Shown here piece by piece: positions 10,547 through 11,524 of a DNA stretch of 45,348 bases. Made by a program: the position numbers and the translations under genes. The notes under the pieces are model-generated. The model saw nothing but the letters and a program-made list of their open reading frames with translations. It did not search any database and was not told the DNA's origin. The DNA is from an uncultured Gammaproteobacteria bacterium (GTDB lineage Bacteria > Pseudomonadota > Gammaproteobacteria > CAMYKB01), in NCBI GenBank assembly GCA_947258875.1, contig CAMYKB010000013.1, forward strand, positions 1 to 45,348, read 5' to 3'. Each line of letters begins with the position of its first letter. Positions within the stretch are counted from its first letter, which is position 1.

Positions 10547-11215
10547 TTAGGCGGGTTTCTTTTTTCTTGAAAAAGCAATTCCAGCTAAACCTAAGCCAAG
10601 CAAAACGATACTGGAAGGTTCAGGCACTGAAACTGAGCCATTACCAGTTCCACCAAATGAGTGATCGTCAATTGCAAATCCAAAGAAACTATTATTTCCA
10701 CTTATTAACACTGACTGAATATCTGCTATGTCACTTTGAAAACCGAAAAACTGCATAGATGATATACCCGTAAAGTTAGCATCGTAACTCTGCCCTGACA
10801 TAAAATTGATTGTGATATCAAAATCTGGCATTAATGAATTAGTATCGAAGCCAAAAGCCGCAATAAGCGGATCATATGTTATCGTTAGATCTCGGTCGCT
10901 TGGATTGAAGCCGTCTAGAAAACCACCAGTAAAGCCCCCTCCGGCGTCTATATTAAAATAGTTCCCAGAGCCTAGAGGCGTTGTATAAGTGACACCAGCC
11001 TGAATATCACCGGCAGAGAGGGTGCCAAAACTGGATGTAGAGCTTAGGCTCCCACCTGGAATCGGAAAGTGAGCTGAGCTAGTGAAATCTTCGAAAGTCG
11101 TTGCGCCCACAGCTGCATCAAATACTGTGCGGTCGGTAAAGGTTGTAATCAGACCGGCACTCACATTTGTTGACAGGATCAAGCACGCAAGTGCCATCAG
11201 TGTTCTTAACTTCAT
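10547..11215 (-). CDS. PEP-CTERM sorting-domain exported protein
   Basis: A 222-residue exported protein from the ATG at 11215, preceded by GGGAG. Residues 1-20 are a signal peptide ending in NVSAG. The middle is a Gly/Ser/Phe-rich beta domain with few charges. The C-terminus is a textbook PEP-CTERM signal: VPEPSS, a hydrophobic helix (IVLLGLGLAGIAF), then SRKKKPA. Such proteins are recognised by an exosortase (EpsH family) and tied to extracellular polysaccharide or floc formation. No exosortase gene is in the window. A sigma-54 promoter and two upstream repeats precede it, and a terminator follows it, so it is a single-gene unit. Confidence 0.93.
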   Translation of the reverse strand: MKLRTLMALACLILSTNVSAGLITTFTDRTVFDAAVGATTFEDFTSSAHFPIPGGSLSSTSSFGTLSAGDIQAGVTYTTPLGSGNYFNIDAGGGFTGGFLDGFNPSDRDLTITYDPLIAAFGFDTNSLMPDFDITINFMSGQSYDANFTGISSMQFFGFQSDIADIQSVLISGNNSFFGFAIDDHSFGGTGNGSVSVPEPSSIVLLGLGLAGIAFSRKKKPA

Positions 11216-11258
11216 TATGTAACTCCCTGTTGTATGCAATATATCCACGCAGATAAAA

Positions 11259-11274
11259 GGCAAAATGTATGCCA
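11259..11274 (-). promoter_or_regulatory. Sigma-54 (RpoN) -24/-12 promoter
   Basis: On the minus strand the sequence TGGCATACATTTTGCC has the invariant GG and GC doublets exactly ten bases apart and a TTGC -12 box, which fits the RpoN consensus. Transcription would start near 11248 and give a ~33-base leader before the PEP-CTERM ATG at 11215. Confidence 0.8.
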
Positions 11275-11335
11275 GTTATATTTTCTAGTCACAAAACAAT
11301 AGGTTATGATTTTTTTCTTTTATTAGAATTATAAA

Positions 11336-11358
11336 AATGTAAATTTTATCGACACCAT
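11336..11358. repeat. Upstream repeat copy 1 (TGT-N11-ACA), probable enhancer site
   Basis: A 23-base sequence identical to 11502-11524. Its core TGTAAATTTTATCGACA is an imperfect dyad of TGT-N11-ACA type, like sites bound by sigma-54 activators. It lies about 65-85 bases upstream of the -24/-12 promoter at 11259-11274, a usual enhancer distance. A PrsR-type activator of PEP-CTERM genes is the natural candidate protein. Confidence 0.7.
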
Positions 11359-11501
11359 TGCGATTGTAATACTCAACAGTTTCAGTATGTATTCCCTCGA
11401 TTTCTTATAATTGACTTGATGACTGATTGATATTGATAAGTAACTCATTGATTTTGTTGTATTTTAAATTAATCTTTCCTGCATTTTCGAGCTATTCATT
11501 T

Positions 11502-11524
11502 AATGTAAATTTTATCGACACCAT
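11502..11524. repeat. Upstream repeat copy 2 (TGT-N11-ACA), probable enhancer site
   Basis: An exact second copy of the 23-base repeat at 11336-11358, in the same orientation and 166 bases further from the PEP-CTERM promoter. Two spaced copies of a site upstream of a sigma-54 promoter are typical of enhancer-binding protein control. The AT-rich DNA between the copies (11359-11501) holds no gene that I can support. Confidence 0.7.

Follow-up and report, generated by a model that had tools for sequence, protein, structure and literature searches.

PrsR-type sites at whole-turn distances from a predicted RpoN element upstream of a gammaproteobacterial PEP-CTERM gene and across its class

Haft et al. 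(2006) described an element that lies in front of 99 of 167 PEP-CTERM genes from proteobacteria. It consists of a 17-nt motif ending in TTTACA (motif 1), which is sometimes repeated, and a downstream -24/-12 element (motif 2), with a spacer averaging 62.8 nt (SD 10.6, range 32-92). The profile of the element matched those of PrsR, PrsK and PrsT, and it was assigned to the PrsK/PrsR pair (PMC1569441). In Aquincola tertiaricarbonis RN12, the PEP-CTERM gene pepA is RpoN-dependent and has a mapped -24/-12 start (PMC9850573). Among other RpoN promoters, those of the Vibrio qrr genes have LuxO loop lengths that cluster ~11 bp apart (61 enhancers; PMC4740811), and IHF-assisted promoters carry an IHF site between the enhancer and the promoter (PMC7962754). 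In vivo data on lac looping were fitted with helical repeats of 11.08 and 11.60 bp (PMC1762422).

The stretch analysed here (the window, 45,348 nt) is the whole contig G000:C13 of an assembly of 3.01 Mb in 67 contigs that is 98.5% complete; the only Rfam matches in it were tRNAs. It carries a PEP-CTERM gene with an ATG start codon at 11215-11213, whose product has a signal-like segment at the N-terminus and the C-terminus VPEPSSIVLLGLGLAGIAFSRKKKPA. The gene and its upstream elements are as follows.

10547..11215, minus strand: PEP-CTERM protein gene, 222 aa (TIGR02595, 30.7 bits against a cut-off of 16)
11260..11274, minus strand: predicted -24/-12 (RpoN) element TGGCATACATTTTGC, GG-N10-GC, 63 nt from the proximal motif 1
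11294..11306, minus strand: IHF-like site TAACCTATTGTTT, one mismatch to YAANNNNTTGATW, 32 nt 5′ of the TGG
11338..11354, minus strand: proximal motif 1 (putative PrsR site) TGTCGATAAAATTTACA, the motif 1 of Haft et al.
11441..11453, minus strand: perfect match to the IHF consensus WATCAANNNNTTR, between both putative activator sites, found by eye
11504..11520, minus strand: distal motif 1 TGTCGATAAAATTTACA, facing the same way as the proximal copy and 166 bp farther upstream

An initial annotation of this DNA had pointed to two identical 23-base TGT-N11-ACA repeats upstream of the gene, and to a -24/-12 element with GG-N10-GC spacing in front of it. Both were confirmed, as was every other sequence detail open to checking: copies of AATGTAAATTTTATCGACACCAT occupy positions 11336-11358 and 11502-11524, and TGGCATACATTTTGC is read from 11274 to 11260. 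The matching stretch around the two repeats, which are 166 bp apart, reaches 29 nt with 93% identity. The distance from TGGCATACATTTTGC to the ATG is ~45 nt, and the leader would be ~33 nt long if transcription starts, as predicted, ~12 nt past the GC. The proposal that the 23-base repeat is a candidate PrsR-type site was supported, with one correction: the repeat contains a match to motif 1, but the conserved unit is 17 nt long, not 23, and reads TGTCGR-N5-TTTACA in gene orientation, the additional identity of the 23-mer being local.

The element of the window corresponds to the motif 1 and motif 2 already described by Haft et al. (2006), with two copies of a 17-nt motif 1 ending in TTTACA, a spacer of 63 nt and GG-N10-GC, placed before a gene that belongs to the PEP-CTERM group by position and protein family. 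The two cases share motif 1, a spacer of ~63 nt, the -24/-12 element, and the placement of the PEP-CTERM gene as a single gene preceded by a long non-coding stretch; they differ in that PrsR, PrsK and EpsH are missing from this assembly. Aquincola pepA likewise has an RpoN-type PEP-CTERM promoter with a predicted enhancer upstream (PMC9850573), but there RpoN dependence and the start were measured, whereas those of the window promoter are predicted. In the window, single parts of the element were about as frequent as expected by chance: TGGCAN6TTGC with at most one mismatch gave 25 matches against 20.5 expected, and TGTAAAN6CGACA with at most two mismatches gave 11 against 10.8. The evidence for the element comes from the exact repeat, from the spacing and from recurrence.

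Of the three exact copies of the 17-mer in the 3.01 Mb assembly, two are those of the window and the third precedes another PEP-CTERM gene; a degenerate form of the motif has 17 matches, nine of them before PEP-CTERM genes. Seven PEP-CTERM genes of this genome exceeded the Pfam cut-off, and motif 1 was observed upstream of all seven. An eighth gene, on contig C1, was detected via two motif copies alone; it is an open frame of 80 aa with a PEP-CTERM segment at its end and no visible signal peptide, perhaps a remnant. The expected enrichment of the motif before PEP-CTERM genes, a prediction of the initial annotation that could have failed, was thus found at 8/8 genes. In all eight, motif 1 lies in phase with a -24/-12-like site, and the proximal copy is 63, 64, 64, 64, 64, 65, 66 and 74 nt away from the -24 element, respectively; five of these promoters were held out, i.e., they had not been chosen by the composite pattern described below. 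GG-N10-GC is present in six of the eight promoters (C5 has GG-N10-GA and C1 GG-N10-GT). Seven have two copies of motif 1, 90 to 363 bp apart, and that on C10 has one; an IHF-like form within one mismatch is also present in seven, and in C5 it is at -37. Two other candidates were discarded. The motif copy at C20:15906, before a pilin-like gene, was left out because no -24/-12 element was seen at the right distance, and C8:61018, where the PF07589 match (15.6 bits) is below the cut-off and no PEP-CTERM gene was seen, was removed from the count.

To extend the comparison, a composite pattern (motif 1, spacer and -24/-12 element) was searched in 369 genomes of the class. It was found in 71 genomes, and the reversed pattern in two. 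The strict composite was present in 61 of the 106 PrsR-positive genomes vs 10 of the 263 without PrsR (Fisher P = 4.5e-30), and was missing in 45 of the 106. At least two composites were found in 39 genomes; 36 of these have PrsR, and the exceptions are this genome, G196 and G342. The assignment of PrsR was clear, with true PrsR proteins well separated (at least 545 bits for those over the cut-off, as against no more than 479 for the other listed matches), and among the matches listed the highest below the cut-off was a partial copy from a genome that also has a full PrsR. The recognition-helix motif (S/T)RPT(L/F/I/M)Y was present in 30/30 PrsR loci (27, plus three with I or M). The layout proposed by the initial annotation, in which an activator site lies upstream of an RpoN promoter, is therefore supported both by the eight genes of this genome and by the class-wide co-occurrence with PrsR. 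The quasi-palindromic nature of motif 1, together with the chance level of isolated -24/-12 matches in the window, might instead suggest that a dimeric regulator of another kind binds the repeats and that the -24/-12 match is fortuitous. We consider this extremely improbable, because the composite co-occurs with PrsR and because, throughout the class, the spacing to the -24 element is locked in helical steps.

The latter result came from a pattern search that weighted all spacers equally, covering lengths of 46-76, then 77-107, and then 15-45 nt. Spacers of 46-76 nt gave 157 matches, 150 of them listed, and the other seven (from G022, G124, G169, G272 and G359) are outside the spacing statistics. 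Eleven of the 150 came from genomes without PrsR and were set aside, which left 139 promoters; 7 of 46 matches at 77-107 nt and 6 of 10 at 15-45 nt were set aside on the same grounds. Spacers of 15-45 nt gave matches at chance level only (in 10 of 369 genomes), and the four that remained were excluded from the period fit, which used the spacers of 46-107 nt from the PrsR-positive genomes and from this one (n = 178). Across the class, the distance from motif 1 to the -24 element clustered at ~52, 63, 74, 85 and 96 bp, with 15 promoters at 50-54, 83 at 60-65, 38 at 71-76, 18 at 83-87 and 8 at 95-97. The best period was 11.14 bp (R 0.66, bootstrap interval 10.92-11.36), and none of 2000 jittered sets equalled it. 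The eight promoters of this genome fit the same phase, at 63-66 bp with one at 74. A step of ~11.1 bp is close to the helical repeats fitted to looping data from living cells, and the SD of 10.6 reported by Haft et al. is the value expected from clusters one helical turn apart.

Some genomes contributed up to nine promoters, and similar promoters repeat inside families f22 and f144, so that the phase clustering could merely reflect the common descent of a small number of duplicated promoters. When sampling was by genome, with one promoter from each (58 genomes, spacers of 46-76 nt), R was still 0.72; in addition, there are five separate clusters, and the five held-out promoters of this genome fit. 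Shared ancestry alone is therefore a very unlikely explanation. Outside the five clusters there were 16 of the 178 promoters, 12 of them at 77-81 nt and four elsewhere. Those at 77-81 nt came from G021, G168, G276 (family f22), G322 and G080; they are partly look-alike promoters of one family, and may have another geometry.

The closest precedent for phased spacing is that of the Vibrio qrr promoters, where RpoN enhancers responding to LuxO also have loop lengths in ~11 bp steps. There, however, the activator and its site are different, the loops are of ~80-120 bp and the data come from one genus (PMC4740811), whereas the distances at PEP-CTERM promoters are of 52-96 bp and were collected by searching 369 genomes of a whole class. 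A term search of the article by Haft et al. (PMC1569441) returned no mention of helical clusters or of IHF sites. We found no report of phased spacing at PEP-CTERM promoters in the open-licence papers that our searches listed, and the helical clustering is seemingly new.

The distal copies of motif 1 were surveyed in the 135 promoters with 430 nt of upstream sequence. A second copy was present in 42 of them, with 46 matches in all (42 facing the same way and four the opposite way), when ~3 in total are expected by chance. The distances between copies gave a best period of 11.18 bp, which none of 3000 nulls, also scanned for their best period, equalled; at a fixed period of 10.5 bp the phase was not significant.

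The spacers were also analyzed for IHF-like sites. YAANNNNTTGATW or its reverse, with at most one mismatch, was found in 71 of the 139 spacers, compared with 18.4 in 200 shuffles (maximum 27), and in 68 no such site was detected at this threshold. The forward form was concentrated 34-30 nt before the TGG (40/139 promoters) and the reverse form 21-17 nt before it (20/139). In equal-length control stretches of the same 139 promoters there were 18 forward and 11 reverse forms upstream, and 2 forward and 10 reverse forms downstream. The site TAACCTATTGTTT of the window occupies the position preferred in the class, between the putative enhancer sites and the promoter. This arrangement is shared with the known IHF-assisted RpoN promoters (PMC7962754); at the PEP-CTERM promoters the IHF-like site is predicted, has a preferred place and is present in about half of the cases. 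A bend at this site would let a short loop close, and would explain why phase matters.

Taken together, these data indicate that the promoter of the window is very probably an RpoN-dependent, enhancer-activated member of a PEP-CTERM regulon, with PrsR sites, an IHF-type bend and whole-turn spacing. In the proposed mechanism, the kinase PrsK would switch on PrsR, the most likely activator, and activator dimers would occupy either a single 17-bp site or two that face the same way. The DNA between these sites and the promoter would be bent, probably by IHF, which would allow the activator to contact the RNA polymerase-RpoN complex at the -24/-12 element from a fixed face of the helix, and to open that element. 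The spacing would shift only by whole turns because a short loop needs the site on one helix face. The sequences themselves show the sites with their spacing, phase and orientation, their recurrence and their co-occurrence with PrsR; that PrsR binds, that IHF occupies its site and that RpoN is needed in this organism is inferred. By extension, the PrsR/RpoN promoters probably constitute a class-wide set of short, IHF-bent loops in which the activator sites have moved only in whole turns of ~11.1 bp.

The genes for the proposed regulators, which the initial annotation suggested looking for, are missing from the assembly. No PrsR (best match 386 bits, cut-off 502.6) or PrsK (best match 101 bits, cut-off 300) exceeded its cut-off, and a PF09721 profile search returned no exosortase. 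At the end of another contig (C28:1-699, L345), a gene for an EpsB_2-type transferase runs off the first base of the contig after 233 aa. Over the corresponding region, the fragment shares 32-41% identity with seven reference EpsB_2 proteins, and it scored 144.8 bits against TIGR03013, where two equally cut EpsB_2 references scored 109 and 133. In seven of nine reference loci (L056, L057, L058, L059, L061, L063 and L064; neighbours judged by eye) an EpsB_2-type gene directly precedes prsK. Beyond the C28 gene, on the other strand, there are sugar-nucleotide dehydrogenase-like and epimerase-like genes (named by eye), and with these neighbours the end of C28 is probably the edge of an EPS/exosortase locus.

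Our first reading had been that of an orphan regulon, in which prsK/prsR and the exosortase have really been lost from the lineage and the old sites are now used by a different RpoN activator. Three markers are missing from a 98.5%-complete assembly, and PrsR is missing from three of the 39 genomes with at least two composites, namely this one, G196 (99% complete) and G342 (85% complete). The cut EpsB_2 gene weakened this reading. Furthermore, the (S/T)RPT(L/F/I/M)Y helix was found in none of ten of the 11 activators of this genome, one of the ten being cut before the helix. Since C28 breaks within the gene that usually precedes prsK, an assembly gap is likelier than an orphan regulon, which we regard as improbable; most likely, PrsR and PrsK are missing through that gap. 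A contig break can thus give a complete system an orphaned look. The exosortase may have fallen into the same gap, but its absence is less fully explained in this way, because this enzyme can be encoded elsewhere. PrsR and the composite are present in G022, G169 and G052, and no exosortase was detected by PF09721 in G022 and G052. In a YajQ search for close relatives, none of the 80 loci returned was more than 70% identical; for lack of a near relative, comparison could not close the gap, and these loci were left out of the rest of the analysis. Separately, G196, with three strict composites and no PrsR over the cut-off, is a second candidate for an orphan regulon.

The promoter ties the PEP-CTERM gene of the window to the known PrsR/RpoN matrix regulon. 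Across the class, PEP-CTERM-like genes lie downstream of 90 of the 139 promoters, as judged with a loose C-terminus expression that includes other P-x-P plus S/A-P variants; a narrower first version gave 65. Motif 1, whole-turn spacing and an IHF-like site together form a rule that finds members missed by protein searches: the short PEP-CTERM gene of this genome and, in relatives, genes for GGDEF, DUF5658, DUF3135 and cell-wall-hydrolase proteins, which recur downstream in several genomes and, as expected, fit a matrix programme. The spacing rule makes the geometry of RpoN enhancer loops testable and, if true, would provide a yardstick, usable across whole genomes of uncultured bacteria, for DNA helicity and loop geometry, as well as a sharp rule for locating the PEP-CTERM/EPS regulon. 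The DUF3135 and GGDEF members hint that c-di-GMP and matrix control belong to the same regulon.

Among the individual loci with PrsR-type promoters, short DUF5658 proteins were observed at L098, L234 and L330 and, by eye, at L099, whose genome (G205) yielded no PrsR match above the cut-off. DUF3135 proteins were observed at L250 and L257 and, by eye, at L251, and GGDEF diguanylate cyclases at L107 and, by eye, at L109 and L252. Cell-wall hydrolases (PF07486) lie behind such promoters in two genera, at L314 (G196, an assembly without PrsR) and at L279 (G036).
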